DNA of 37,269 bases from Gammaproteobacteria bacterium (GTDB lineage Bacteria; Pseudomonadota; Gammaproteobacteria; HK1). Both the position numbers and the translations under genes were made by a program. A model generated the notes under the pieces. That model saw nothing but the letters and a program-made list of their open reading frames with translations. It searched no databases and had not been told where the DNA came from. This document shows positions 22,293 through 37,269 of this stretch, one piece after another; position 1 is the first letter of the stretch; the number at the start of each line of letters is the position of its first letter. The stretch lies in NCBI GenBank assembly GCA_022823045.1, contig JAJDXW010000367.1, positions 1 to 37,269 of the forward strand, given 5' to 3'.

Positions 22293-23321
22293 TCAGCGCG
22301 GATCGGCGACCGGGGCCGTCGTGCCCCCTTCGTCCTCGCCCCGTTCGCCGGCGGCGAGACTTCCCCGCATCCGCGTGTCGGCCTGGATGTTCTGCATCCC
22401 GTAGTAGTCCATGATCCCGAGGTTGCCGCTCCGGAACGCGTCCGCGATCGCCTTCGGCACTTCCGCCTCGGCGAGCACTACCTTGGCCTGGTTCTCCTGG
22501 ACGAGGGCGACCATCTCCTGCTCCCGGGCCACCGCCAGCGCGCGCTGGCGCTCGGCCTGCGCCTGGGCGACCTGCTTCTCGGCCTCGGCCTGGTCGATCT
22601 TGAGCCGCGCCCCGACGTTGTCGCCGACGTCGATGTCCGCGATGTCGATCGAGAGGATCTCGAACGCGGTCCCCGAATCGAGGCCGCGCTCGAGCACCAC
22701 CTTCGAGATCTGGTCCGGGTTCTCGAGCACCCGCATGTGGTTCTCGGCCGACCCGATGGTGGTCACGATGCCCTCGCCGACCCGGGCCACGATCGTCTCT
22801 TCGGTCGCGCCGCCGACCAGCCGTTCGAGGTTCGTCCGCACCGTGACCCGGGCCTTCACCTTGAGCTGGATCCCGTCCCCCGCGATCGCGTCGATGGTGC
22901 TGCGCGCCATCGTGCCCGACGGCACGTCGATCACCTTCGGGTTGACGGAGGTGTCGACGGCCTCCTTGGCGTCCCGCCCGGCGAGGTCGATCGCGCAGCA
23001 CCGATCGTAGGTCAGCTCGATGTTCGCCTTGTTGGCGGAGATGATCGCCTGCACCACCCGCACGACGTTGCCGCCCGCGAGGTAGTGCGCCTCGAGCTCG
23101 TCTCCGGTCACCTCGATTCCCGCCTTCCGGGCGGTGATGCGGGCGGTGACGATGGTGCCGGGATTCACCTTGCGGAACCGCATGAAGATGATCTGGACGA
23201 GGCTCACCGGGGCGTTGGAGAGGATGGATTGCCACCAGAGCCAGAACGAGTTCCAGATGAGGGCGAAGATCACGAGAACGACGATTGCGCCGATCGCGAG
23301 GCCGATGAGTTCGATGATCAT
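22293..23321 (-). CDS. floA: Flotillin-like protein FloA
   Basis: This is a 342-residue membrane-scaffold protein of the FloA (YqfA) type, which organises membrane microdomains. An N-terminal hydrophobic hairpin (1-50) anchors it in the cytoplasmic membrane: [20 protein letters not shown] and a second hydrophobic stretch before [12 protein letters not shown]. The flotillin/SPFH-like body has [20 protein letters not shown], the [20 protein letters not shown] segment and [20 protein letters not shown]. The coiled-coil region (from about 245) is [20 protein letters not shown], with a C-terminal tail. GAGGAGG upstream decides the ATG at 23321. Length and domain order are as in the family. nfeD is 67 nt upstream on the same strand, the standard arrangement. 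Confidence 0.95.
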
Positions 23322-23388
23322 GTCAGGCTGACCTCCTCGGTTCCTGTGGTGAGTCCCTGGGGCGGGCGGTGCATGGGGTGGCCCGCGA

Positions 23389-23880
23389 TCAGGACGGCGG
23401 CTGCGTCACGAAGATGATGGGGCCGTCGATGCGTTCGACGACCACCGTGGCCCCCGCCTCCAGCACCGGGCCGTGCACCTGCACGTCGCACTCGCCCCCC
23501 GCGAAGCGTGCCCGGCCGATCGGCCGCGCCGGGGTGACGAGCTCCCCCTCGGAGCCGGGGCCGATCGCGAGCCGGTCGGCGACGTGCCGGTAGCCGGCGT
23601 CGGCGACGACCTCGGACTTCGGCACCGCGGACCGCGACGCGCGGATCCGGACGAGCCCCCATCGGGCGGCGAAGAGCGCCCCGACCGGGATCAGGGTCAC
23701 GCTCGTCCAGCCCGCCACGTCGTGGGCGTCGAACGCGTAGACGATCGAGCCGACCGCGCACGCGATGGCCGCGATGAGGAGCAGCCCGAAGGAGACCACG
23801 AAGACCTCGAGGACGACGAGCACCGCGGCCGCGCCGAGCAGCCCGAGCGATACGAGGAGCGCCGTCCAGTCGAGTTCCAC
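23389..23880 (-). CDS. nfeD: NfeD-like protein, short form
   Basis: This is a 163-residue membrane protein of the short NfeD class that accompanies flotillins. Three hydrophobic segments (about 6-25, 28-49, 58-70) are followed by a soluble OB-fold domain from about 90: [20 protein letters not shown], then [19 protein letters not shown]. The start is the GTG at 23880, with GGAGG six nt before it. No protease domain is present, as is usual for the short form. It is the first gene of the nfeD-floA-unknown operon. Confidence 0.9.
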
Positions 23881-24109: not shown

Positions 24110-26356
24110 ATGGGCGACACGAATCGAACGCGACGCGAGCGGAGCGGAGCAAGACCGGGGCTCGGGATGGGCGCCGCCGTCGTGCTCTCCCTCGCGACCG
24201 GCTGCGCGGCCCCGCCTCCCGCGGACCCCGCTCGCGATCTCGCCGCGCCCGAACCCGCGCGCATCCCGGCCCCGGTCCTGACGCCGCCCCCCGTGCCGAA
24301 GCCCGTCCCGGGCGAGCCGGTCGAGACCTGGTCCGTCTCGGTCGAGGGCGTCCCCGTCCGCGAGCTCCTCTTCGCCCTCGCCCGGGATGCGGCCGTGGAC
24401 GCGGACATCGACCCGGGCATCGAGGAGCGGGTAACCATGAACGCGATCGACGAGCCGCTCCCCCGCCTGCTCGACCGCATATCCCGGCACGCGGATCTGC
24501 GCGTCGAGATCGAGGATGGCGTCCTCGTCGTCCGGAGGGACGAGCCGGTGCTTCGCACCTATCCGATCGACTACGTCCCCCTCGCCCGGGAAACGGAGAC
24601 GGTGAACGAGGTGGGAACCGGTGTCGGGGGCGGGATCGAGGCGCCGGCCGGCGAGGAGAACGGCTCTGCCGCGAACGTGCGGGCGCGGGCCGAACACCGG
24701 TTCTGGGACGCGCTCGTCGAGTCGGTGCGCGGGGTGCTCGGTGAGGCGCCGGACGAGGCGGCGAGCGTGTTCGCCCATCGCGAAACCAGCCTCATCGCGG
24801 TGCGGGCGAACGCCGCCGGGCATCGCGAGGTGGCGCTCCTCCTCGATCGCATTCTCGCGAGCGCCCGGCGCCAGGTCCTGATCGAAGCGACCATCGTCGA
24901 GGTCGAGCTCGACGACCGCTTCCGGGCCGGGGTCGACCTGTCGCGGGTCTTCGGCGACGCCGCGATCGAGTGGAGCCTCCTCGCCGGCAACCTCCGCGCC
25001 CCGCCCTTCGCCGGACTCTCCATCCCCGACCTCTCGCTCACGGTCCGGCTCCTCAGCGAGTTCGGGGACGTGCGGGTGCTCTCCACCCCGCTCGTCATGG
25101 CCCTCAACAACCAGACCGCGATCGTCAAGATCGCCGAGAACCGGGTGTTCTTCACCTCCGAGGTCCGGACCGAGACGAACGAGACCACGGTCGAGCGCAA
25201 CGTCCAGACCAAGCTGCACACGGTCCCGGTCGGACTCATCCTCCTCGTGACTCCGTCGGTCGCGGCGGACGGCGAGATCATCCTCAAGGTACGCCCCACC
25301 GTCACCCGGGAGAGCGGGTTCGTGGTCGACCCGAACCCGGAGCTCGCGGCGGCCGGGGTGGTGAGCCGGATCCCGGAGATCGCGGTCCGCGAGATCGAGT
25401 CCGTGCTGCGCCTTCGAAGCGGCGAAGTTGCGGTGCTGGGGGGACTCATGCGGGAGGAGGCGCACGAGGACACGACGGGGGTCCCGCTCCTCTCCCGCCT
25501 CCCGGGGATCGGGGCCGCGTTCCGGTACCGGGACCGGGTCCGCGACAAGACCGAGCTCATCGTGTTCCTGCGCCCGACGGTGGTCCGGGAGCCGGGCCTC
25601 GCGGGGGACCTCGCGAAGTACCGCCGGTGGTGGCCGGCGGTGGGCAGGGCGGTCGTGCCGGAGCGGGGCGCGCAGATGCGGGGCGCACCGGAGCCAGGCG
25701 TTCGAGATCACGGCCCTACGCGGTCCGGCGCGGGCGGCGAGGCTCGGCTCCTCATCGAGCGGGCGCGAGCCGGGAACCCCGCGGACGGGCTGCTCTTGCG
25801 GGCCTGGACCGCGCTTCGGCGAGGAGACTACCCGACCGCGCGGGCCGCCTACCTCGAAGCGTTGGACGCTCGCCCGGACGAGGCCCTGGCCGGCCTTGCC
25901 GCCGCCGCCCTCCGCGAGGGACGGATCGCGGCGGCGCGGGGGTGGTACCTCCACCTTGCCGCCCGCGATCCGGAGCAGGAGATCGGCGGAACGATGTCCT
26001 TCGTGCTCGACCCTGACCGGGACCCGACGGTGCGCGAACGCGAGCTCGCGCGGCGGGTGTCGCGGGCATCGGAGGCCGCGTGGCTCAACGTGGCGCGCGG
26101 GAACGCGCTTGCCGAACAGGGCCGGTGGGAGGCGGCGGCGAGCGCCTACCGGGACGCCCGCCGGGACGCCCCGTCGAACCCCGATCCGGCATACAACCTC
26201 GCGGTGAGCTCAGAGCGACGCGGCCGGCCCCGTCGGGCCCTGTCGCACTACCGCGACGCGCTCGACCTCGCCCGGCTCGCGCCCCCCGCTTTCGACGTGC
26301 GCGCCGTCCGCGATCGGATTGCGGCCCTCGAAGGGCGGGCCGCGGGACGCCCATGA
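24110..26356 (+). CDS. Secretin (MshL/PilQ/GspD family) fused to a C-terminal TPR domain
   Basis: This is a 748-residue outer-membrane secretin lipoprotein. A lipoprotein signal with VVLSLATGC puts the lipidated Cys at residue 32. A Pro-rich linker (33-68) precedes an N0/STN-like domain (about 72-145), an N1-like domain (about 198-250), and the secretin core (about 253-495), including VRVLSTPLVMALNNQTAIVK, VGLILLVTPSV, the GEVAVLGGLMREE lip segment and KTELIVFLRPTVV at its end. After about 540 come TPR-like helices (LLRAWTALRRGDYPTARAAY; NALAEQGRWEAAASAYRDAR). In MSHA systems the secretin MshL and the TPR protein MshN are separate; here they look fused. It is first in the operon and overlaps the next gene by four bases. 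Confidence 0.88.
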   Translation: MGDTNRTRRERSGARPGLGMGAAVVLSLATGCAAPPPADPARDLAAPEPARIPAPVLTPPPVPKPVPGEPVETWSVSVEGVPVRELLFALARDAAVDADIDPGIEERVTMNAIDEPLPRLLDRISRHADLRVEIEDGVLVVRRDEPVLRTYPIDYVPLARETETVNEVGTGVGGGIEAPAGEENGSAANVRARAEHRFWDALVESVRGVLGEAPDEAASVFAHRETSLIAVRANAAGHREVALLLDRILASARRQVLIEATIVEVELDDRFRAGVDLSRVFGDAAIEWSLLAGNLRAPPFAGLSIPDLSLTVRLLSEFGDVRVLSTPLVMALNNQTAIVKIAENRVFFTSEVRTETNETTVERNVQTKLHTVPVGLILLVTPSVAADGEIILKVRPTVTRESGFVVDPNPELAAAGVVSRIPEIAVREIESVLRLRSGEVAVLGGLMREEAHEDTTGVPLLSRLPGIGAAFRYRDRVRDKTELIVFLRPTVVREPGLAGDLAKYRRWWPAVGRAVVPERGAQMRGAPEPGVRDHGPTRSGAGGEARLLIERARAGNPADGLLLRAWTALRRGDYPTARAAYLEALDARPDEALAGLAAAALREGRIAAARGWYLHLAARDPEQEIGGTMSFVLDPDRDPTVRERELARRVSRASEAAWLNVARGNALAEQGRWEAAASAYRDARRDAPSNPDPAYNLAVSSERRGRPRRALSHYRDALDLARLAPPAFDVRAVRDRIAALEGRAAGRP

Positions 26357-28281
26357 CGGCGCGCCCGGCCACCGCAGGGAGGGCCGCCCCCTCGCCCTTC
26401 CCCGAAGGCGCGGACCTCGACCCGCTCGGAACCCTGCTCCTCGAGGCCGGTGCGATCAGCGAGGACCAGGCCCGGATCGCACTCACCGAGCATTCGAGAA
26501 CCGGCGCGAGGTTCGCCGACATCCTCGCCAGGTTCGGGTTCGTCACCGAGGCGATCGTTCGCGACGCGGTCGGCGGGGCCCTCGGAGTGGAGAGCGTGGA
26601 CCTGGGCCGCACGGTGGCCGAGGCCGAGGCGACGAAGGCAGTTCCGGAGGCCGTCGCGCGGCGCTTCCTGGCCGTCGGCCTCACCCTGGAGCACGCGGCG
26701 GACGGCGCCCCCCGGCGGCTCACCGTCGCGATGGCGGATCCCTTCGACGTGATCGCGCTCGATCACCTCCGATCGCTCTTCGGCGACCGGGTGGAGATCG
26801 TTCCCTTCCTCGCGGGGCGCTCGGACATCGAGCGGTTTCTGGAACGCGCCTACCGCCACGAACTCTCGGTGGCCGGGATCCTTCGCGAGATCGAGACCGG
26901 GGAGGTCGATCCGGGGACGGTACCGGGGTCCGCCGACGAGTACAGTCAGCCGATCGTTCGTCTCGTCGACGTGCTCCTCACCGACGCGGTGAAGCGAGGA
27001 GCCTCGGACATCCACTTCGAGCCGGAGGCGGGGTTCCTGCGGGTTCGCTACCGGATCGACGGCGTCCTGCGCCAGGTGCGGAGCCTGCACCGCAGCTACT
27101 GGTCTGCCATCGCGGTGCGCCTCAAGGTGATGTGCGGCATGAACATCGCGGAGACGCGCGCCCCCCAGGACGGGCGCATGACCCTCTCCGTCTCCGGCCA
27201 CGACATCGACTACCGGGTGTCCTCCCTCCCGACCGCGCACGGCGAGAACATCGTGCTGCGGGTGCTCGACCGGAGCCGAGGGATCGTGGCCCTGGGCGAG
27301 CTCGGCATGTCCGCCCACGCGCTCGCTGCGCTCCGCCGGATGATGGAACGCCCCGAGGGCGTGATCCTCGTGACCGGGCCGACGGGCAGCGGCAAGACCA
27401 CCACCCTGTACTCGATCCTCGCCCACCTCGACCACGAGGGGATCAACATCATGACCCTCGAGGACCCGGTCGAGTACCCGATGGCCCGGATCCGCCAGAC
27501 CTCGGTGAACGAAGCGGTCAAGCTCGACTTCGCGAACGGGGTGCGGAGCCTCATGCGGCAGGATCCGGACGTCATCCTGGTCGGTGAGATCCGCGACGCG
27601 GACACCGCCGCGATGACCTTCCGGGCCGCGATGACCGGGCACCAGGTCTACTCCACCCTGCACACGAACTCCGCGATCGGCGCGATACCGCGGCTCCTCG
27701 ACATCGGGGTCGCCCCCGGGGTGCTGGCGGGGAACATCATCGGAATCGTCGCCCAGCGACTGGTGCGCCGGCTCTGCCCGGAATGCCGGGAACCGGTGCC
27801 TTCGCCGACCGGCCCGCTCGCGGCGGCGGGAGGACGAACGCGAGCCGCGAACGGAGACCCGTCCGCCGGAAGCGGGGGCATGCCCGGCGGCGGAGACGGC
27901 AGCCGGACCGGAGAGGAGCTCGACACGGAGCGACCGCCCTTTCGGCCGGTCGGCTGCCCCCGGTGCGACCACCAGGGCTACCGGGGACGGATCGCGCTCA
28001 CCGAGGTCCTTCGCTTCGACTCGGTGCTGGACGCCCTCGTCGCCCGGCGCGCACCCGCCCACGAGCTGCTCGAAGCTGCGCAAGCCCAAGGGTTCGTCAC
28101 CCTCGCCCGCGACGCGATGCGCCGAGTCGCGGACGGATCATCGACGATCGAAGAGGTCTCGCGAGTCGTGGACCTGACGCGGGACGCCTCCCGAGCACCG
28201 GCGTCCACCGCAAGCGCACGGTCCGGCACCCTCGATCCCGCGGCCCCGGTGGAGCCAGGCCTGGCGCGAGGGCGCTCGTAG
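26353..28281 (+). CDS. mshE: Pilus assembly ATPase, MshE/PilB/GspE type
   Basis: This is a 642-residue cytoplasmic extension ATPase. An N-terminal MshEN-like domain (about 23-165) precedes the core. The core has an Asp box, DIHFEPEAGFLRVRYRIDG (219-237), Walker A GPTGSGKTTT (342-351), TLEDPVEYPM, the Walker B region DPDVILVGEIRD (404-415) and the His box TLHTNS (435-440). Two CxxC pairs of the zinc site are at Cys475/478 and Cys535/538, separated by a Gly/Pro-rich insert longer than usual. The MshEN motifs, which bind cyclic di-GMP in MshE, begin with PLG and RFA instead of RLG, so binding is doubtful. ATG at 26353 overlaps the secretin stop codon. Confidence 0.92.
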   Translation: MTARPATAGRAAPSPFPEGADLDPLGTLLLEAGAISEDQARIALTEHSRTGARFADILARFGFVTEAIVRDAVGGALGVESVDLGRTVAEAEATKAVPEAVARRFLAVGLTLEHAADGAPRRLTVAMADPFDVIALDHLRSLFGDRVEIVPFLAGRSDIERFLERAYRHELSVAGILREIETGEVDPGTVPGSADEYSQPIVRLVDVLLTDAVKRGASDIHFEPEAGFLRVRYRIDGVLRQVRSLHRSYWSAIAVRLKVMCGMNIAETRAPQDGRMTLSVSGHDIDYRVSSLPTAHGENIVLRVLDRSRGIVALGELGMSAHALAALRRMMERPEGVILVTGPTGSGKTTTLYSILAHLDHEGINIMTLEDPVEYPMARIRQTSVNEAVKLDFANGVRSLMRQDPDVILVGEIRDADTAAMTFRAAMTGHQVYSTLHTNSAIGAIPRLLDIGVAPGVLAGNIIGIVAQRLVRRLCPECREPVPSPTGPLAAAGGRTRAANGDPSAGSGGMPGGGDGSRTGEELDTERPPFRPVGCPRCDHQGYRGRIALTEVLRFDSVLDALVARRAPAHELLEAAQAQGFVTLARDAMRRVADGSSTIEEVSRVVDLTRDASRAPASTASARSGTLDPAAPVEPGLARGRS

Positions 28282-29489
28282 TGGCCCTCGTCCCGATGCG
28301 CTATCGGGCGATGGACGCGCGCGGACGCATCCGGCGCGGCCGCATGGAGGCCGCGAACGAGCTCGACCTCGAGGCCCGCCTTCGCCGGCTCGACCTCGAC
28401 CTCGTCTCGTGCACGCGCGCCCCCGCGGCGAGGACGTGGTCGCTCCGCCCCCCGGTCCGCCGCGGCCAGCTCATCAACTTCTGCTTCCATCTCGAGCAGC
28501 TCCTCGCCGCGAGCGTGCCCATTCCCGAAGCGCTCGCGGACCTCCGCGACTCCGTCAAGGGGTTCCGCCTCCGCGAGGTGATCACGTCCATGGTCGAGGC
28601 AATTCACGCCGGGGCGAGGCTCTCCGAAGCGATGGCCCGACATCCCGAGGCGTTCGACTCGATGATGGTCAACCTGGTTCGCGCCGGCGAGTCGAGCGGG
28701 CAGCTTCCCGCGGTTCTCCAACGGCTCACCGAGACCCTGCGCTGGCACGACGAGCAGGCGATGCAGTTCCGCAAGGCGCTCATGGCCCCGGCCCTCGTCG
28801 CATTGGTCATCGGCGCGGTCGTCGTGTTCCTCATGCTCTATCTCGTCCCCCGGCTCGCCGGGTTCATCGAGACCATGGGGGAGGAGCTGCCCGCGCACGC
28901 CCGTGCCCTCATCGCGCTGTCGCGGTTCTTCCAGGACTGGTGGTTCCTCCTGCCCGCGGCCGGGGTCCCCTGGGCGCTCCTCGCGGCGGGAGCGCGCCTG
29001 AGTCCGCGCCTTCGCCGAGCCAAGGACGCGCTGCGCCTGCGCATCTGGGTCGTCGGACCTCTCCGCAAGAAGCTCATCCTGGCCCGGTTCGTCAACTACT
29101 TCGCGCTCATGTACGCCTCAGGGATGTCCGTGCTCCAGAGCATCCGGATCGGCGAGGGGCTGCTCGGCAACCGAGTGGTGGAAGAGGCGGCGCGCACTGC
29201 CGCGAAGCGGATCGCGGAAGGGGCCAGCATCAGCGAAGGCTTCGAACAGGCCGGCCTGTTCCCGCCGCTCGTTCTGAGGATGCTGCGGGTGGGGGAGAGC
29301 ACCGGCGCCCTCGACACCGCTCTTTCCAACATCAGTTACTTCTACGAGCGCGACGTGCGGGACGCGGCGGAGCGGGTGCAGGGGCTCGTCGGACCGGCGT
29401 GCACCCTGTTGCTGGGCGCACTGCTGCTGTGGGTGGTGGTGTCGGTGATGGGTCCGATCTATGAGATGGTCGCCGGCATTTCCCTCTAG
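28281..29489 (+). CDS. mshG: Inner-membrane platform protein, MshG/PilC/GspF type
   Basis: This is a 402-residue membrane protein with two T2SS-F domains, the rotor/platform on which the ATPase acts. Domain 1 (about 65-188) has LINFCFHLEQLLAASVPIPE and VRAGESSGQLPAVL. TM1 is around 173-195, TM2 around 218-237. Domain 2 (about 255-375) repeats the pattern with FVNYFALMYASGMSVLQSIR and LRVGESTGALDTAL. TM3 (about 375-395) is near the end. The start is a GTG at 28281 overlapping the ATPase stop (TAGTG), with GAGGG about nine nt upstream; the ATG five codons later is possible. Length is normal. Confidence 0.92.
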   Translation: MALVPMRYRAMDARGRIRRGRMEAANELDLEARLRRLDLDLVSCTRAPAARTWSLRPPVRRGQLINFCFHLEQLLAASVPIPEALADLRDSVKGFRLREVITSMVEAIHAGARLSEAMARHPEAFDSMMVNLVRAGESSGQLPAVLQRLTETLRWHDEQAMQFRKALMAPALVALVIGAVVVFLMLYLVPRLAGFIETMGEELPAHARALIALSRFFQDWWFLLPAAGVPWALLAAGARLSPRLRRAKDALRLRIWVVGPLRKKLILARFVNYFALMYASGMSVLQSIRIGEGLLGNRVVEEAARTAAKRIAEGASISEGFEQAGLFPPLVLRMLRVGESTGALDTALSNISYFYERDVRDAAERVQGLVGPACTLLLGALLLWVVVSVMGPIYEMVAGISL

Positions 29490-31008
29490 GCGCTCCGAAC
29501 GCTGGGTGCTGGTGGTCCGGGCGGGCGGGGCCGGCCTGTTCCGGGGAACCCGCAGGGCCGTCCGCGCGGTCGCGGACTTAACCGCGGACGAGGCCGGATA
29601 CACCGAGCTCCGGCGGAATGTCGAACGCGCCGCCCGACGGCCGATTCACATTCTCGTCGATCTCGTCGAGGAGGACTTCCGGCGCGAGACGGCCCCCCAC
29701 GTGCACGGCCCCACGCGGCGGTCGATCCTCAAGACTCGGAGCGCCCGACTGTTTCCCGGTACGCCCTTCGTCTCGGCCCGGCGGGAGGGACGGATGCCCG
29801 ATGGGCGGCGCGACGACCGGATCCTGTTCTCCGCCATCGTCCGGCCCGAGCGGATCGAGCCCTGGCTCGACGCGCTTCGCGGGCACGAGGTTGCCGGAGT
29901 CCACTCGCTTCCCATGGTCAGCGCAGGGCTGCTTCCGTTCCTCGGGGCGGGTTCCGGACCGGTGCTCCTCGTCACCGAGAGCGGCGATCGGGATCTGCGC
30001 CAGACGTGCTTCGAGAACGGACGCGTGACACTCAGCCGGCTCGCGACCCTCCCGCCCGGGGAGCCGGTGGAAAGGGCGCGGCGCATTGTGGAGGAAGTGG
30101 AGCGGATCATGCATCACCTCGAGCGCTCCTCCGGACGCTCCACGGAGGGGCTGGGTTTCCGCCTCGTGGGAGGCGCTCCGCTCCTCGCCGCGCTGCGGGA
30201 TTCCAAGCTTCCCGGCGAACTGGCCGAAGGGCTCGTCGACACGGCGGCGCTCGAGGGCCGGCTCGGCGGTCGCTCCCGTCCGTACACCGCCGACCGCAAC
30301 GTCGGCTCGAAGGGCGGGAGCGACCGCATGTTCGCGTACCTGGCCCTCAACCGCCCGCTCCCAAATCACTACGCGTCGGCGCCGGTCCTCGCGATGTACC
30401 GGACAAAGCAGGCCGGCCGCGCGTTCAAGACGGCGGGAGTCGCGATGCTCCTCGCGGGTACGGCCCTTGGCGGGGCAGCGTGGCATCGCGGCGGTGAGCT
30501 CGCCGCCGCGGCGGAGGCCCTCGAGCGGCAAGCGGCCGACGTCGAGTCCCTCTACCGGACGGAACGGCTGCCGGAGTCGGAAGTCGGGCCGGACGACCTC
30601 CGGGTCGTGGTCGAGGCCGCGGAGCGGCTCGACGCCAACCGGATCGGAGCGCTCCCGATCCTCCGAACGGTGAGTGACGCGCTTGCGGTATTCCCCGATC
30701 TCGAGCTCGGGAGCCTCGAGTGGTTCGAGATCTCCGAGCGCGATGGGTGGCCGTCGCCTCCCGCCGAGGACGCCCCCCGAACGGGATTCCGGGTGGTGCA
30801 TCTGCGCGGCCGGGTGGAGCCATTCACCGGGCACTATCGGGCCGCCGCCGACGAAGTGTTCCGGTTCGTGGACAGGCTCGAAGCCATGCCCGGACTGAGC
30901 GGAGTCGACGTGACCGACCTGCCGCAAGACGGGGATGACGGGAACCGCCGTCGCCGCCCGGATGCCGGCTTCGAGTTGAGGATGGTGGTGGATGCCCGGG
31001 CCGGTTGA
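29461..31008 (+). CDS. Inner-membrane pilus assembly protein, PilM/GspL/PilN-like fusion
   Basis: This is a 515-residue bitopic protein. The cytoplasmic part (1-320) has VLVVRAGGAGLFRG and ILVDLVEEDFRRE, then LRQTCFENGRVTLSRL (179-194) and a helix before RLVGGAPLLAALR, the pattern of the actin-like cytoplasmic domain of GspL/PilM proteins. One membrane segment lies at about 323-341. The remainder (342-515) is periplasmic, with a helical stretch then mixed strands, as in PilN/GspL. In other systems these are two proteins, PilM and PilN (or MshI). The ATG at 29461 overlaps mshG by 29 nt; a GTG at 29506 could be the start instead. Assignment rests on layout and a few motifs. Confidence 0.65.
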   Translation: MRWSPAFPSRRSERWVLVVRAGGAGLFRGTRRAVRAVADLTADEAGYTELRRNVERAARRPIHILVDLVEEDFRRETAPHVHGPTRRSILKTRSARLFPGTPFVSARREGRMPDGRRDDRILFSAIVRPERIEPWLDALRGHEVAGVHSLPMVSAGLLPFLGAGSGPVLLVTESGDRDLRQTCFENGRVTLSRLATLPPGEPVERARRIVEEVERIMHHLERSSGRSTEGLGFRLVGGAPLLAALRDSKLPGELAEGLVDTAALEGRLGGRSRPYTADRNVGSKGGSDRMFAYLALNRPLPNHYASAPVLAMYRTKQAGRAFKTAGVAMLLAGTALGGAAWHRGGELAAAAEALERQAADVESLYRTERLPESEVGPDDLRVVVEAAERLDANRIGALPILRTVSDALAVFPDLELGSLEWFEISERDGWPSPPAEDAPRTGFRVVHLRGRVEPFTGHYRAAADEVFRFVDRLEAMPGLSGVDVTDLPQDGDDGNRRRRPDAGFELRMVVDARAG

Positions 31009-32131
31009 GATCCGGTGGCGCCGCCTGCGGTTCTCCCTGGCCGCGTTCACCGCCGCGGCCCTGGTCGGGGGGGCCGCCGCGGCCGCCGCATGGTGGCAGG
31101 AGCACCGCGCCGCCGAACGGATGGAAGCGGCCGAGACCCGTCTCACGGCGGCGCGCGGACGCTACTCCGCGCTCGCCGGAGAGCGGGAGAAGTGGCGCCG
31201 GTTCGGCCCCCTTTACCGCCGGCTGGCGGCACAGGGACGGCTCGGCGGGGAGCAGCCGGCGCGCTGGACGGAAGCGGTGAGGCACGCGATGGCCGGATTG
31301 CCCGCCGCCCGCTACCGGTTCGGCTCGACCCACGTCGTCGAGAACGACGGTCCGATCGAGGTTCGGGCGACCGACATGTCGCTCGAGCTCGAGATGCGAC
31401 ATGAAGCCGAGCTGACGCGGTTCCTCGCCGCCCTGGAACGCGAGGCGCCCGGCACGTTCACCGTTTCGGGCTGCCGCCTCCTGCGAACGGACGGACCTGG
31501 TGCGAGGGAGCCGCCGCTCGTCGCCGCGGGCGGCGACTCGGACGCCGTCGTCGATGCGGCGTGCCGCATTCGATGGCAGTCCGTCGTCCTCTCCGGAACC
31601 GCCCCCGGCTGGACCCCCGCCGCCGGCCTGGACGGCGGGAAGGCCGCCGGGGCGGCATTGACCGGATGGGAGGCAGCCCCCTTCGACCCGCCGCGGGACA
31701 CCTTTGGCCGGCTGTTCACGACCGCGGCGGAACGCGCTCGAATCGATGCGGCCCTCGTGGCCCCGGAAGCGGACGAGGCCCCGGTCCGTTCCGGACCGCC
31801 GGCGCAGCCAAGGCCGGCCCGCTGGGTGCACGTCGGCGGAATCGTCGCCCGTTCCGGCGGTTCGGTGTTTGCCTGGATTGACGGCCGGCGAGTCGCGTAC
31901 GGCGACCCGCCTTCGAAGCGGCCCGCTCCGGCCGAATCCCGAGCGACGGTAATTCGCGTCGACGCGGGAGGCCATTCGATCCTGGTTCGACCCGGACAGC
32001 GATTCGACCCCCGCACGGGTGCGGTGAGCGACCCGATCCGTAGGCCGGAGGACCGGTCACGTCGCGCCCGATCCCTACGAGAGTCGTCCACCGCACCTCT
32101 CACGGATCCCCCGGCCCCCGGCCAGAATTGA
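30992..32131 (+). CDS. Inner-membrane pilus assembly protein, PilO/MshJ- and MshK-like
   Basis: This is a 379-residue bitopic protein. A basic N-terminus precedes one membrane segment (about 13-34), then a coiled coil (about 38-70) and a ferredoxin-like stretch (about 95-200) as in PilO/GspM-type proteins. From about 275 the sequence WVHVGGIVARSGGSVFAWID and a later VRPGQRFDPRTG look like the small periplasmic domain of MshK/PilP/GspC proteins that links the inner-membrane complex to the secretin. The two parts would be a fusion. The ATG at 30992 overlaps the previous gene by 17 nt, so coupling is likely. The tail (from about 345) is Arg/Ser/Pro-rich and disordered. Functional call by layout and position only. 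Confidence 0.6.
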   Translation: MPGPVEIRWRRLRFSLAAFTAAALVGGAAAAAAWWQEHRAAERMEAAETRLTAARGRYSALAGEREKWRRFGPLYRRLAAQGRLGGEQPARWTEAVRHAMAGLPAARYRFGSTHVVENDGPIEVRATDMSLELEMRHEAELTRFLAALEREAPGTFTVSGCRLLRTDGPGAREPPLVAAGGDSDAVVDAACRIRWQSVVLSGTAPGWTPAAGLDGGKAAGAALTGWEAAPFDPPRDTFGRLFTTAAERARIDAALVAPEADEAPVRSGPPAQPRPARWVHVGGIVARSGGSVFAWIDGRRVAYGDPPSKRPAPAESRATVIRVDAGGHSILVRPGQRFDPRTGAVSDPIRRPEDRSRRARSLRESSTAPLTDPPAPGQN

Positions 32132-33978
32132 ACGCCCGGCCGCGCCGCGAACGGGGTCCGGGCCCGGGAGCGGGGAGCCCTCCCCCGCAGCCGGTCTCGC
32201 CGCAGATCGGTCGGCCCGCGGCTCGCGGCGCCGACGCGCGCGCGGCCGGGTCAGAAGGGAGAGAAGCGGTTGCAAGTGATCACGGGATTGCCCGACGCAA
32301 GGCGGCGGCGGCGACGCGACGCGCTCCCCGCGCACCCGGAACGCACGGGGCCGGGGGAGCTCCCGGACCGGGCGGCCCGCTCGACTCGCAACGCGGCGCC
32401 GCCCTCCTCGCGCTCGTCCTTGCCCTCGCCCTGGGGTCCGGGCTGGTGACCATGGAGTGGCTCGAGGCGGCGGCCCGCTCCGCCCACACCATGCGCCGCA
32501 CCGAGTCCGCGCTTGCGGCGGCCCGTGATGCGCTCATCGGATACGCCGCGTCCTATCCGGACCAGCACGCCGGCCGCCATGGCCCGGGCTACCTCCCCTG
32601 CCCCGATACGAGCGGCAACGGCTCGCCGAATACGCCTTGTCGCGCCACCGCGCTCGGGCGGTTGCCCTGGCGCCGGCTGGGCCTGCACGACCCGCGTGAC
32701 GGGGCCGGGGAACGGCTCTGGTACGCACTCGATCGTCGGTTCCGGGCGAACGGCTACAAGCATCGTCCACTCAACGGCGATACCGCCACGAACCTCGTGG
32801 TGAGCGGACGAGGCGGCATCGCCGCCGTGATCCTCGCGCCGGGCCCTGCCCTGCCCTTCCAGGATCGGAGTCGGGACCGCTTCGATCCCGTGCAATACCT
32901 GGAGGGGGGCAACGAGTCACCCGGGGACGGCGCATACGTCTCACAGGAGGCGTCGCCCTCCCGGACCAACGACCGGTTCAACGACCGGGTGGCCGCGATT
33001 CCCCGGGACGAGCTGATGGCGGCCGCCGCGCGCCGCGCGCTCGCCGCCGCCCGCGAATCCCTCGAGGAGTATCGCGCTGCACCCTGGAACACCGGGGTCC
33101 TGCCGTGGCTCGCGCCCTGGACTGCGCCGGCCGAAGGGGGGCTCCCGGTTCCCGGCGTCACCGCCGGCCGTCTTCCCCTTCTTCGAAGCGGGAGCACGTT
33201 CGAGACCTCTTTCCGGGTGACCGGCGCAGTCGCGGGTGGCGTCGCCTCCGCGTCGGGAACGGTGCCCCCCGCCGTCCTGAGCCTGACTGGCCAAGTGCTG
33301 CACGTGGCCGCCGGGGAATGCTCCTGGGCGGGAGCATGGCGGATCGAATGCACGGGCGAGAGCCGCACCGTCCCCGCGCCCGGTCAAGAGCGGGTGTTCC
33401 GGTTCGACCTGCACTTCAGCGGAGAGGAACAGATCACGCTCCCGACTCGCACGGACATCCGCCGACGAAAGGTCCGTGGAGTCGAATGGGTGGCGAACTC
33501 GCATATCGAGGTCCTCGACTTCGCGGGAGGCACGCAGACCGGGCGCGGTGTGCTCCGGTTCTCCCCGGGGCCAATCCAGGGGACCCTGGCCGTCGATGGG
33601 GTCGCCCATCCGTTCGGAGCCGGCGACGAAGTGCCGGAATGGCTGCTCGCAAACGAATGGCACCGATTCCTGGCAACGGCGGTCGCCCCGGCGTTCACGG
33701 CCGGCGGCGCAGGCACCTGCGGGATACCGGGCCGTTGCCTCGAGCTCGCTCGTACCGGATTCGACAGACTGACGGATGAACGCGACGCGATCGCGGTCGT
33801 GGTCCACGCCGGGAAGGAGCTCGCCCACCAGCATCGCGGCCGACCCGGTCCCGCCGAATGGTTCGAGGGCGAGAACGCCAATCCCCTCAATCTACGGTAC
33901 GAAGCGAAGCACGCGAGCGATTCGTTCAACGACCAGGTGGCGGCGATCGGGCCGCCTCCGGGGCTTCCCACCCCATGA
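32128..33978 (+). CDS. Pseudopilin-like protein with long N-terminal extension
   Basis: This is a protein of up to 616 residues. A single hydrophobic segment, RGAALLALVLALALGSGLV, follows QRG at about 88-107, like pseudopilins of the PilX/MshP type that lack the Glu at position 5. It continues into the helix ESALAAARDALIGYAASYPD and GYLPCPDTSGNGSP. The 90 residues before the membrane segment are Pro/Arg/Ala-rich and look unstructured. The only usual in-frame start is the TTG at 32128, which overlaps the previous stop; no clear ribosome site, so the true start is uncertain. Two similar phrases, DRFNDRVAAI and DSFNDQVAAI, occur about 330 residues apart, which suggests an internal repeat. Its neighbours suggest a minor pilin or tip protein. 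Confidence 0.65.
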   Translation: MNARPRRERGPGPGAGSPPPQPVSPQIGRPAARGADARAAGSEGREAVASDHGIARRKAAAATRRAPRAPGTHGAGGAPGPGGPLDSQRGAALLALVLALALGSGLVTMEWLEAAARSAHTMRRTESALAAARDALIGYAASYPDQHAGRHGPGYLPCPDTSGNGSPNTPCRATALGRLPWRRLGLHDPRDGAGERLWYALDRRFRANGYKHRPLNGDTATNLVVSGRGGIAAVILAPGPALPFQDRSRDRFDPVQYLEGGNESPGDGAYVSQEASPSRTNDRFNDRVAAIPRDELMAAAARRALAAARESLEEYRAAPWNTGVLPWLAPWTAPAEGGLPVPGVTAGRLPLLRSGSTFETSFRVTGAVAGGVASASGTVPPAVLSLTGQVLHVAAGECSWAGAWRIECTGESRTVPAPGQERVFRFDLHFSGEEQITLPTRTDIRRRKVRGVEWVANSHIEVLDFAGGTQTGRGVLRFSPGPIQGTLAVDGVAHPFGAGDEVPEWLLANEWHRFLATAVAPAFTAGGAGTCGIPGRCLELARTGFDRLTDERDAIAVVVHAGKELAHQHRGRPGPAEWFEGENANPLNLRYEAKHASDSFNDQVAAIGPPPGLPTP

Positions 33979-34700
33979 TCCCGGCTCTCCGGACGAAGAA
34001 GGGGACGCGGCCGCCGGGGGCGGCAAGGGACATGGAGGGGCTGTCGCTCATCGAAGTGGCGATCGCCCTCGCGGTGAGCGCCCTTCTGATCGGAGGGCTG
34101 ATGGTCCCGCTCGCCGCCCAGATCGACCGATACCGGCTGCGGGAGACAGAGGCCGCCCTCGGCCATGCGCTGGAAGCGCTGCTCGGTTACGCGGCGGCGC
34201 ACGACAACCGGCTGCCCTGCCCGGACATCGACGGTGACGGGAGGGAAGACCGGCCCGGACCGGTCTCCGCGCCCTGCCGCGGCATCGAAGGCGAGCTCCC
34301 TCGCGCGACGCTGGGGGTCCCGGGAAGGGACGGATGGGGACGGCCGCTCCGCTACCGGGGCAACGACGCCCTCACTGGACCGGGGGGGATCCCCCGGCCG
34401 CCGAACACCCGGGGCGGCCGTCGAATCGACAATCCGCGCACCGGCGAACGCCTGACCGTCGGCGATCCGGAAGCGCCGGCCGCAATCCTCTTCTCGTGCG
34501 GCGCGAACGGCCATCCGGACGACGAGAACGACGGGACCGGAGGGAGCCCCGCCGGGTGCTCCAACCCCCTCCGCCCCGACCCCCGCTACGCGCACGCGGT
34601 GCCGGGCCGTCCCGGCTCCGGCGGATTCGACGACGTCCTCATCTGGATGTCGAAGAACGTGCTCCTCGGCCGGCTGGTGCGGGCGGGTACCTGGCCGTGA
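33975..34700 (+). CDS. Prepilin-type minor pilin
   Basis: This is a 241-residue protein with a class III prepilin signal. The leader ends in AARDMEG, cleavage would come before LSLIEVAIALAVSALLIGGL, and Glu at position 5 of the mature protein is present. The helix continues into ETEAALGHALEALLGYAAAH and then RLPCPDIDGDGRED, the same motif as in the preceding protein. Later it has ILFSCGANGHPDDENDGTGG, an Asp-rich loop, and GGFDDVLIWMSKNVLLGRLV near the end. The ATG at 33975 overlaps the previous stop (ATGA). It is likely a minor pilin or pseudopilin exported by this system. Confidence 0.82.
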   Translation: MIPALRTKKGTRPPGAARDMEGLSLIEVAIALAVSALLIGGLMVPLAAQIDRYRLRETEAALGHALEALLGYAAAHDNRLPCPDIDGDGREDRPGPVSAPCRGIEGELPRATLGVPGRDGWGRPLRYRGNDALTGPGGIPRPPNTRGGRRIDNPRTGERLTVGDPEAPAAILFSCGANGHPDDENDGTGGSPAGCSNPLRPDPRYAHAVPGRPGSGGFDDVLIWMSKNVLLGRLVRAGTWP

Positions 34701-34723
34701 GGGGAGCTCGAAGCATGTGGTCT

Positions 34724-34756
34724 CCGGACCAGTCGGCGGCAACGCCGGCGGTCCGG
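34724..34756 (+). terminator. Strong hairpin before the pilin gene
   Basis: CCGGACC (34724-34730) pairs with GGTCCGG (34750-34756); inside it CGGCG (34734-34738) pairs with CGCCG (34743-34747) around a GCAA loop. No T-run follows. It lies in the 119-base gap before the pilin gene and may end or process the upstream message, leaving the pilin message separate. No promoter was recognised for the pilin gene. Confidence 0.4.
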
Positions 34757-34819
34757 GTCCCCCGGTCGTCGCCCCCAGCATGAAGCGCCGGATACGTCCC
34801 CGGCGCGGGAGAAAGTCAC

Positions 34820-35533
34820 ATGGACGCAAGGAAAGCCGCCGGCTTTACCCTCATCGAAATCGCCATCGTGCTCGTCGTCATCGGATTGCTCGTCGGCGCG
34901 GTCCTCACCGGCCAGGAGCTCATCGCGAGCGCGAGGGTCCGCAACCTCGCGGATTCGAATGCCGGGATCCGGTCCGCGTACTTCGCCTTCGTCGATCGCT
35001 ATCGCCGGGTCCCCGGCGACTGGAACGCGACCGAAGCCGGCGAAGCGCTCGGCGCTGCCGTGAACGGGGGCGGAAACGACAATGGCCTCATCGACAACGA
35101 TTCCGGCACCGAATGGGTCGAGCCGAACGCCCTCTGGGAGCAGCTCGCCAAGGCCGGGTTCCTGCAGGGCGAGTTCGCGGGCGACGCGGTCGCGCCCACC
35201 CCGACCAATCAGAGGGCTCCCCTCAACCCCTTCAACCGGGTCATGGTGCTCGGACGGACGGACGACTACCTCCACGCGGGCGGCACGCCCCCGGTGCGCC
35301 TCAACCTCGTCCTCGGCCGCGGGGTTCCGGTCGACCTCGCCCGCGAGCTCGACGTCAAGATCGACGACGGCGCCCCGGACACCGGGGCATTGCGCCTTAC
35401 CGTGAGCAGCGGGGCGACCTTCGGCGAGGCGGCGGAAGGCGAGGCGGGCTGTTCGCGATCCGGTGGAGCCGGAGCCCTCATCTACGACATCGGCGCCGAC
35501 AGCCAGGACTGCAACGTCACCTATCTTTACTGA
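34820..35533 (+). CDS. Type IV pilin-like protein with prepilin signal
   Basis: This is a 237-residue protein with a short leader, MDARKAAG, cleaved before FTLIEIAIVLVVIGLLVGAV, a textbook type III signal with Phe1 and Glu5. The helix runs on to about residue 60 (RSAYFAFVDRYRRVPGDWNA). The globular part has GNDNGLIDNDSGTEW, a loop rich in Asn/Asp, and a C-terminal region with two cysteines 16 residues apart (GCSRS and DCNVTYLY), which could form the usual pilin disulfide. GGGAGAAAG lies just before the ATG. Probably the main pilin-like subunit of this operon, but it is larger than most major pilins. Confidence 0.88.
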   Translation: MDARKAAGFTLIEIAIVLVVIGLLVGAVLTGQELIASARVRNLADSNAGIRSAYFAFVDRYRRVPGDWNATEAGEALGAAVNGGGNDNGLIDNDSGTEWVEPNALWEQLAKAGFLQGEFAGDAVAPTPTNQRAPLNPFNRVMVLGRTDDYLHAGGTPPVRLNLVLGRGVPVDLARELDVKIDDGAPDTGALRLTVSSGATFGEAAEGEAGCSRSGGAGALIYDIGADSQDCNVTYLY

Positions 35534-35833: not shown

Positions 35834-37269
35834 TCAGGTGCCGGGTACTTCCCCTGGCCCCATTTCGCCCGGAAGGGGGATCCCGAGGCTCTCCCACATC
35901 GTGTCGACCCGTTCGAGGACCTCCCGCCCCATGACGATGGGCCGGCCCCAGGCGCGCTCCGTCTCTCCGGGCCACTTTCCGGTCGCGTCGATGCCCATCT
36001 TGGAGCCGAGCCCGGCAACCGGGGAGGCGAAGTCGAGGTAGTCGATCGGGGTGTTCTCGACGAGGGTGATGTCGCGGACCGGGTCCACCCGGGTCGAGAG
36101 CGCCCACGCTACGTCCTTCCAGCTCCGGACGTCGATGTCCTCGTCCACCACAATGATGATCTTGGTGTACATGAACTGGCGGAGCACCGTCCACAGGCCG
36201 AACATTACCCGCTTCGCGTGCCCCGCGAACTCCTTCCTCATCGAGACGATGCCGATCCGGTACGAGCACCCCTCGGGGGGCAGGTAGAAGTCGCGGATCT
36301 CGGGAAGCTGGCGGCGAAGGAGGGGGATGAAGAGCTCGTTCATTGCCGCGCCGAGGACGGCCGGCTCGTCGGGCGGGCGGCCGGTATAGGTGCTGTGGTA
36401 GATGGGATCGCGGCGGTGGGTGATGCGGTCGATGGTGAAGACCGGGAACGTCTCGACGTCGTTGTAGTACCCGGTGTGATCCCCGAACGGGCCCTCCGGG
36501 GCCTCGTCCCCGGGATGGATGGCGCCCTCGAGCACGACCTCCGCGCTCGCCGGCACCTGGAGGTCGGAGCCGAGCGCGCGCGCGACCTCGGTGCGCCCGC
36601 CCCGGAGGAGCCCCGCGAAGGCGTACTCGGAGAGTGAGTCCGGGATCGGGGTGACCGCGGCAAGGGTCGTCGCGGGGTCCGCCCCGAGAGCGACGGCGAC
36701 CGGGAACGGCTCCCCCGGGCGCGCCTCGCGCCACGCCCGGTAGTCGAGAGCGCCGCCCCGGTGCGCGAGCCAGCGCATGATGACCCGGTTGCGCGCGATG
36801 ACCTGCTGGCGGTAGATGCCGAGGTTCTGCCGGCCCCCGTGCGGCCCCCGGGTGATGACGAGGGCCCAGGTGATGAGCGGCCCCGCATCGTCCGGCCAGC
36901 ACGTCTGTACCGGCCACGCGCCGAGGTCCACCGCATCGCCCTCCAGCACCACCTCCCGGCAGGGCGGGGAGCGGGCCTCGCGCGGGGACATCGAGAGGAT
37001 CTGCCGGAAGATGGGAAGCGACTTCCACGCCTCGCGGAGGTCCCGGGGCGGGTCCGGCTGGCGGAGGAAGGCGAGGAGCTCGCCGATCTCGCGAAGGGCC
37101 TCGACGTTCTCCACCCCCATCGCCCGCGCGACCCGGCTCCGGGTCCCGAAGAGGTTGGCGAGCACCGGGATCCGATGCCCCGCCGGTCGCTCGAAGAGAA
37201 TCGCGGGGCCGCCGCCGCGCAGGGTCCGGTCGCACACCGCGGTCATCTCGAGGCGAGGGTCGACTTCGG
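35834..37269 (-). CDS. ubiD: 4-hydroxy-3-polyprenylbenzoate decarboxylase UbiD, 5' end cut
   Basis: This is the minus-strand gene for the prenylated-FMN decarboxylase of ubiquinone synthesis. The frame is open to the right edge: before the ATG at 37246 it reads VDPRLE, matching the family's VDP-LE-TE segment, so about 25 residues are outside the window. Inside are [105 protein letters not shown] with the catalytic acidic and metal region, [17 protein letters not shown] and [20 protein letters not shown]. The C-terminus is short after [15 protein letters not shown]. The prenylated flavin is made by UbiX, not seen here. It converges with the small gene upstream. Confidence 0.95.

Follow-up and report, generated by a model that had tools for sequence, protein, structure and literature searches.

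An eight-gene operon at positions 24110 to 35533 of a 37,269-nucleotide stretch of gammaproteobacterial DNA (assembly GCA_022823045.1, contig JAJDXW010000367.1; the whole stretch is here termed the window) appears rather likely, on the comparisons described below, to encode the core of a type IV filament machine belonging to a lineage that is probably the sister of the mannose-sensitive hemagglutinin (MSHA) pili and that has been streamlined in this particular branch. We use X to designate the wider group that holds the window operon. An original prediction, made from the sequence alone, had described at this position a secretin-TPR fusion, an ATPase, a platform protein, PilM/PilN-like and PilO/MshK-like fusions and three pilin-class proteins in one operon lacking genes for the PilT retraction ATPase and a prepilin peptidase, and proposed either a variant of the MSHA class or a dedicated secretion system. 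The composition of the operon, including both absences between 24110 and 35533, was confirmed; and since some 90 other loci show the same gene order, a chance arrangement is excluded.

The phylogeny of marker proteins proposed as a check on that prediction was carried out against MSHA, the type II secretion system (T2SS) and type IVa pili (T4aP). Trees were quick runs, in which support denotes SH-aLRT values only; MSHA references were loci with MshL scores over cut-off, T2SS and T4aP references came from genomes searched for the T2SSE family, ten reference ATPases carried NCBIfam labels, and PilQ references were added separately. In the ATPase tree, which was also repeated without long rows, the 27 rows of X are set off by a branch with support of 100 (T2SS, 100; T4aP, 100; MSHA, 93). 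The platform tree likewise gives an X clade support of 100, and a concatenate of both proteins gives X, MSHA, T2SS and T4aP 100 each, with X and MSHA opposed to T2SS and T4aP at 66. The secretin tree splits MshL-like rows (X, MSHA and others) from PilQ and GspD (98), and places X with three large secretins (99) apart from MSHA with L201 (99); an approximately unbiased (AU) test on this tree (p 1e-44) was not used, the constrained group having omitted the nested rows L197, L200 and L207. By these sequence comparisons X is a distinct lineage, with its own ATPase and platform clade apart from MSHA, T2SS and T4aP, and probably the sister of MSHA, a placement favored but not proven. The ATPase, platform and secretin of the window thus lie in this separate lineage and not in a known MSHA clade sharing the same fusions, and one genome of the window's family, G008, carries both kinds, with an MSHA-type ATPase on C10 (872 bits with the MSHA profile versus 510 with that of X), an X locus on C25, and an MshM-like gene on each. 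None of the curated NCBIfam equivalogs was reached by the window secretin, ATPase or platform: the secretin scored best with MshL (214 bits; cut-off 250.2), compared with GspD (152.8; cut-off 351.35) and PilQ (96.2; cut-off 284.35), the ATPase was nearest GspE (496.5; cut-off 630.25), with PilB at 470.6 (cut-off 675.65), and the platform was nearest GspF (287.4; cut-off 424). Two further sets of loci were noted in these trees: the secretins of L197 (8662-11187, 842 aa, adjoining a frame of 2457 aa), L200 and L207, which group with X (99) and have no other X genes nearby, and L196, L198 and L199 (in G059, G255 and G063), an MshL-like group with ATPase and platform genes that lies outside both MSHA and X.

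X is widespread, occurring in Gammaproteobacteria (including Duganella, Massilia and Rhodocyclaceae), Desulfobulbaceae and one metagenome-assembled genome (MAG) of Acidobacteriota. Scanning species genomes of the Genome Taxonomy Database (GTDB) with an alignment of the platform matched at least 595 stretches, at least 576 of them encoding a relative, and 80 loci were kept. Among the matches listed, those closest to the window platform were OY282433.1 (88% identity), an Immundisolibacterales MAG (84%) and Thioalkalivibrio sp. HK1 (62%), and members of X at 46-56% identity came from Duganella, Massilia, Janthinobacterium, Rugamonas, Rhodocyclaceae, Sulfuricella, Beggiatoa, Thiomargarita, Desulfobulbaceae and the Acidobacteriota MAG. 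The window genome itself (G000) is a MAG, 96% complete with 7.3% contamination, and its family comprises G000-G016, in which those three relatives are G001 (OY282433.1, the chromosome of an uncultured gammaproteobacterium in one contig, estimated at 97% complete), G002 and G003 respectively. The protein encoded at 29461-31008 (PilMN) was matched in 21 of 55 genomes searched, namely 16 of the 17 in this family and five others. Plasmids interrogated by tblastn returned only general relatives from T2SS and type IV secretion systems for the ATPase and platform, and nothing for PilMN; and searches of the open-licence literature of PMC listed no paper recognized as describing X or a secretin fused to tetratricopeptide repeats (TPR).

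Gene neighborhoods were counted over 90 loci that remained after removal of seven duplicates (L079-L083, L086 and L088), leaving out loci with platform scores of 550 bits or less or with too short a flank for the gene in question. Same-strand partners next to the platform were nearly invariant: ATPase in 80 of 82 testable loci, TPR protein in 64 of 66, secretin in 62 of 63, PilMN in 82 of 83, PilO in 75 of 76 and PilP in 70 of 71; the pilin-class partners, designated P2, P3 and PX, were found in 58/65, 42/60 and 41/68, respectively. Of the 58 testable X loci, 50 have a gene for an MshM-like AAA protein ahead of the secretin (profile scan, at least 250 bits; counted by hand, discarding matches of 35-50 bits on the ATPase itself), and in L095 the match is 2.3 kb upstream. 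The loci without it are L029, L030, L037, L038, L041, L043, L046 and L110, of which L043, L041, L037 and L038 belong to genomes G004, G010, G015 and G016. The notion that MshM is absent from the whole of X was rejected: none occurs between secretin and TPR genes, but these 50 loci have it upstream of the secretin. The gene order of X is therefore MshM-like, secretin, MshN-type TPR, ATPase, platform, PilM/N, PilO, PilP and pilins, or M-L-N-E-G-[I]-[J]-[K]-pilins. The canonical MSHA order we take to be I-J-K-L-M-N-E-G-pilins, as in L189, whose genes were named after that known order. Two features of individual loci may be recorded here: L043 has no TPR gene beside its secretin, neither separate nor fused, and a gene that reads as an ABC-type permease accompanies 34 of the 70 X loci that have 8 kb or more of downstream sequence after the platform (for example L034 2341-3144, L037 16512-17363 and L089 16093-16863) and is absent from the window.

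The window branch is set apart by two fusions. Its secretin extends 258 aa beyond the secretin domain, the median in relatives being 41 aa, and such a long tail occurs in four of 65 loci (the window, L029, L030 and L046); the fusion of PilO with PilP is found in the identical four among 82. Among the loci examined, both are therefore confined to the window, two congeners and Thioalkalivibrio sp. HK1, which form one clade in the ATPase tree (support 100), so that one origin suffices. In sequence the secretin tail matches TPR genes that relatives carry separately, and the TPR genes of X in turn match MshN (hhalign, 99.1%, E 4e-19). In those separate genes the repeats are preceded by a short opening stretch (typically MSLLMDALKKAE...) and, as a rule, by a hydrophobic segment; the fused protein has no transmembrane-like segment (maximum mean hydropathy of the tail, 0.81) and retains the TPR block only, suggesting that the part lost was the cytoplasmic segment and membrane anchor. 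A lipoprotein-like start, by a simple pattern, is present in the window secretin, in 59 of 66 X secretins and in 11 of 12 MSHA secretins. In two published accounts, the TPR pilotin TadD is reported to hold the C-terminus of the secretin RcpA (PMC10499894), and MshN is given as its only homologue in the type IV filament superfamily (PMC10499894, PMC6668835); a fusion of secretin and TPR is what would be expected if MshN acts on MshL as TadD does on RcpA.

Of the three fusions originally counted as unusual, the secretin-TPR and PilO-PilP fusions retain that standing; the joining of PilM to PilN proved ordinary, being lineage-wide and, by published account, also the type found in PulL of T2SS. 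By predicted folds, the 29461-31008 protein is a PilM joined to a PilN and the 30992-32131 protein a PilO followed by a small C-terminal domain. Modeled by AlphaFold2 from lineage alignments, the former (pLDDT 87.6) has an actin-like N-terminal half followed by a long helix, and ends in a ferredoxin-like fold; its top solved match by Foldseek is PilM of Pseudomonas aeruginosa (5eox_B, E 3e-10), and it also matches cytoplasmic domains of GspL (4pht_Y, E 7e-7). The latter (pLDDT 75.3) gave weak Foldseek results, with nothing at E 0.001 or below, and the core of its PilO part (residues 88-199) aligns with P. aeruginosa PilO (2rjz) over 90 residues (VIA-align; Z 10.8, rmsd 2.1). Its C-terminal part aligns with separate PilP-like genes in relatives, for which the nearest profile, weakly, is MshK (hhalign E 9e-4).

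The same branch has diverged in the features expected to govern the motor. As one study describes, MshEN domains bind cyclic diguanylate (c-di-GMP) through two RLGxx...LxxxLxxQ motifs, and binding was lost when Gly11 of motif 1 was changed (PMC5013675). The window ATPase reads PLGALH (three of six) in motif 1 and RFAVVA (one of six) in motif 2 across the six key positions of each. The glycine of motif 2 is kept in 79 of 84 X ATPases and replaced (by A, A, A and E) in exactly the four that accompany the fusions, the fifth exception being a gap; the glutamine of motif 2 is already missing in most of X. Proteins with a GGDEF domain numbered zero in G000, G001 and G002, one each in G003 and G004, zero in G013 and G015, and 8 to 32 in G007-G009. 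Genome searches of G000-G003 gave no match to canonical MshM. The PF00437 family is represented in G000 by the window ATPase and by one in the CpaF range on a contig read as Tad; G001-G003 also have two matches each, and in none of these four genomes, judged by score with no PilT model run, does a match fall at 136-169 bits, the PilT-like range elsewhere. A second ATPase locus of PilB/GspE type, with a pilin, is present in G001 (L237, at 949207); its best match, a weak one, is the MSHA profile, and it was not found in the window MAG. The peptidase, which the prediction had suggested looking for elsewhere, is encoded on contig C264 of the window genome as a full-length PilD-type protein; each of the other five genomes searched has a relative. 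A few kb from the C264 peptidase gene lies an orphan pilin of T4a type (GLTVIELMIVIAILGILAAVA...; L026 994-1917, minus strand), and since no other PilB-type ATPase was found in the MAG, this pilin could be a substrate of the window machine.

Compared with known systems, the operon is most like MSHA in its MshL-like secretin, MshN-type TPR, MshE-like ATPase with MshEN, platform, PilM/N-, PilO- and PilP/MshK-like parts, lack of an in-locus peptidase, and, in most relatives of the window, MshM-like gene. It is unlike MSHA in that X has its own ATPase, platform and secretin clade, another set of pilins, and the I-J-K modules after the platform, and in that the window has no MshM, has the two fusions and a degraded c-di-GMP motif, and has no PilT that was found. 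MSHA, as the MSH class, has reportedly been proposed by Pelicic as a type IVe pilus (T4eP). Within the published definition of the MSH model, MshM is mandatory, and none of the MSH loci treated there has a peptidase gene (PMC6668835). MSHA pili of V. cholerae need PilT for both extension and retraction (PMC9815625), so the window lineage must work differently if pili are made. The operon resembles T2SS in its GspL-type PilM-PilN fusion, the lack of PilT, and the grouping of secretin, ATPase and platform in one operon, but differs in that the GspD, GspE and GspF models all score under cut-off, in its separate clade, and in having an MshN-type TPR. A PilMNOP-type alignment complex and a pilin N-terminus of GFTLIE type recall T4aP, from which it departs in PilB and PilQ scores under cut-off, the lack of a PilT match, its separate clade, and the collection of its genes in one locus. 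Its TPR protein is like that of the Tad pair RcpA-TadD in presumably acting on the C-terminus of a secretin, TadD being a published homologue of MshN (PMC10499894, PMC6668835); unlike Tad, the window TPR is a covalent part of the secretin and the ATPase and platform are not of Tad type. Canonical MSHA, T2SS and T4aP membership was in each case rejected on at least one defining feature.

From these data we infer an MSHA-like filament machine that would be blind to c-di-GMP, would not retract, and would have its secretin and TPR as one covalent unit. In such a machine PilD from C264 would cleave the three prepilins, and the ATPase and platform would polymerize P3, perhaps also the orphan PilA-like pilin near pilD, on a tip primed by PX and P2. 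PilMN and the PilO-PilP fusion would align the inner-membrane motor with the secretin, whose covalent TPR block would replace the inner-membrane-anchored MshN, acting from the periplasm to stabilize or assemble the secretin. Extension would then be free of c-di-GMP and the filament would undergo no active retraction; the likeliest product would be a static adhesive surface filament, which the MSHA-like secretin and TPR, the MshE-like ATPase and the GFTLIE pilin of about 230 aa tend to favor. We suggest more tentatively that X may be a separate, unnamed class of type IV filament beside T4aP, type IVb pili (T4bP), Tad, Com and MSHA, of which the window branch would be a self-contained, c-di-GMP-blind and PilT-free form with a covalent assembly TPR on its secretin.

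Several observations weigh against parts of this interpretation. The sister relationship of X and MSHA has weak support (66 in the concatenate, 53 in the platform tree), and the ATPase tree alone joins MSHA with T2SS and T4aP, although an AU test does not reject X with MSHA (p 0.28). The PilMN, PilO and PilP parts scored weakly by hhalign against MshI/J/K, PilM-P and GspL/M/C, which is why their folds were predicted instead. Regarding loss of the c-di-GMP signal, the MshE-related domain model of NCBIfam is still over its cut-off in the window ATPase (42.2 versus 38), and although G013 and G015 have no GGDEF proteins, the G015 row (L037) retains both motif glycines, so that loss of GGDEF and loss of the motif are not strictly linked. 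PilT would be absent according to a range of scores and not a dedicated model; and because the window genome is a MAG, the absences lean mainly on G001, with its own estimated 97% completeness. The genes alone may fit a surface pilus or a periplasmic pseudopilus alike, and the lack of E5 in PX together with the GspL-type fusion would also suit a pseudopilus.

This last point bears on the secretion system named in the original prediction, in which the pilins would form a short periplasmic pseudopilus pushing substrates through the secretin in the manner of T2SS. We regard it as unlikely. The PulL-like fusion, the lack of PilT and the large minor pilin would accord with it, as would PX lacking E5, presumably a GspK-like trait, and ATPase and platform scores that are higher with GspE and GspF than with PilB and PilC models; yet the GspD, GspE and GspF scores are far under their cut-offs, T2SS forms a separate clade in all trees, the secretin groups with MshL-like rows and the TPR with MshN. 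The other proposal, a variant of MSHA, holds as to kind, with MshL as best secretin model, a TPR resembling MshN, MshM in relatives and no peptidase in the operon, but not as to descent, the operon lying outside the MSHA clade. That it is simply a divergent member of that class, already called MSHA by automatic annotation, is possible but, we think, doubtful. The secretins of X straddle the NCBIfam MshL cut-off (three over and four under among seven relatives), the content M-L-N-E-G-I-J-K is common to both, and X with MSHA is weakly favored and not rejected; the two nevertheless form separate clades (100 each in the concatenate) with different gene orders, G008 has an MSHA-type ATPase in addition to its X locus, and MshM, mandatory in the MSH model, was not found in the window genome.

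That MshM, the c-di-GMP motif and PilT have been lost could also mark a decaying, non-functional operon on its way out. Such decay is improbable, given that none of the eight frames is broken, that the genes are tightly packed and that the fused genes are kept in three other genomes whose platforms are 88, 84 and 62% identical to that of the window. The fusions might be put down to faulty assembly or frameshifts in a MAG, a reading that deserves virtually no credence and is refuted by the occurrence of both in four different assemblies, including that of a genome in one contig. The filament machine of lineage X, streamlined in this branch, remains the interpretation we prefer.

The operon offers a naturally occurring case of an MshN-type TPR fused to the C-terminus of a secretin, with the inner-membrane anchor of MshN gone, which predicts that MshN acts directly on the C-terminus of MshL. 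Denise et al. expected few new families of type IV filaments and left open the link of MshN and TadD with the secretin (PMC6668835). A lineage without diguanylate cyclases, an intact c-di-GMP motif in its ATPase, MshM or PilT would serve as a control for what extension of the MSHA type requires; and the fused parts, together with the apparent loss of a control signal and a retraction motor, would make open questions about these machines testable. The MshL cut-off, by splitting members of X, tends to hide the lineage in automatic annotation: with three of seven relatives passing it, some members have very likely been named "MSHA type" automatically.

Table 1. Coding sequences of the window operon, with the basis of each assignment
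Feature	Position	Strand	Basis
Secretin, MshL-like, probable lipoprotein, with C-terminal MshN-type TPR block fused	24110-26356	+	Pfam Secretin E 3e-38 and TPR families
Assembly ATPase, PilB/GspE/MshE superfamily, N-terminal MshEN with degraded c-di-GMP motif	26353-28281	+	Pfam T2SSE E 1e-124, MshEN E 2e-14
Inner-membrane platform, PilC/GspF/MshG type; start 28281 or 28296	28296-29489	+	Pfam T2SSF, two copies, E 9e-48
PilMN, predicted PilM-like actin-fold domain and PilN-like coiled-coil/ferredoxin domain, 515 aa	29461-31008	+	AlphaFold2, Foldseek
PilOP, predicted PilO-like domain and PilP/MshK-like C-terminal domain, 379 aa	30992-32131	+	AlphaFold2, structure alignment, alignment with relatives
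PX, large minor pilin-class protein, G|AALLALVL..., no E5, long leader	32128-33978	+	Translation
P2, minor pilin, G|LSLIEVAIALAV...	33975-34700	+	Pfam N_methyl E 0.002, under cut-off
P3, putative major pilin, G|FTLIEIAIVLVV..., mature form about 230 aa	34820-35533	+	Pfam N_methyl over cut-off

The compactness of the operon (Table 1) extends to its junctions. The stop of the secretin gene and the start of the ATPase gene overlap (ATGA at 26353), and the PilMN, PilOP, PX and P2 genes likewise begin before the end of the preceding gene, overlaps between neighbors measuring 4 to 29 bases; the ATPase and platform genes are separated by 14 bases, or overlap by one with the alternative platform start, and P3 alone is set apart, by a gap of 119 bases. 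The PilMN, PilOP and PX proteins had no match in Pfam or NCBIfam, and by sequence PX had no useful match in the PDB, a search of which matched the N-terminus of P3 to the pilins PilA5 and PilE. On the minus strand to either side are genes that, from their sequences, we take to be an SPFH/NfeD-type pair (22293-23880) and a UbiD-type decarboxylase (35834-37246), both presumably unrelated to the machine. The leader of PX, of about 85 aa (32128-32380) and rich in Pro, Arg and Ala, precedes its hydrophobic segment, and the true start may differ; compared with L029, the leader is identical at 46 of 80 aligned positions and the remainder of PX at 364 of 530.

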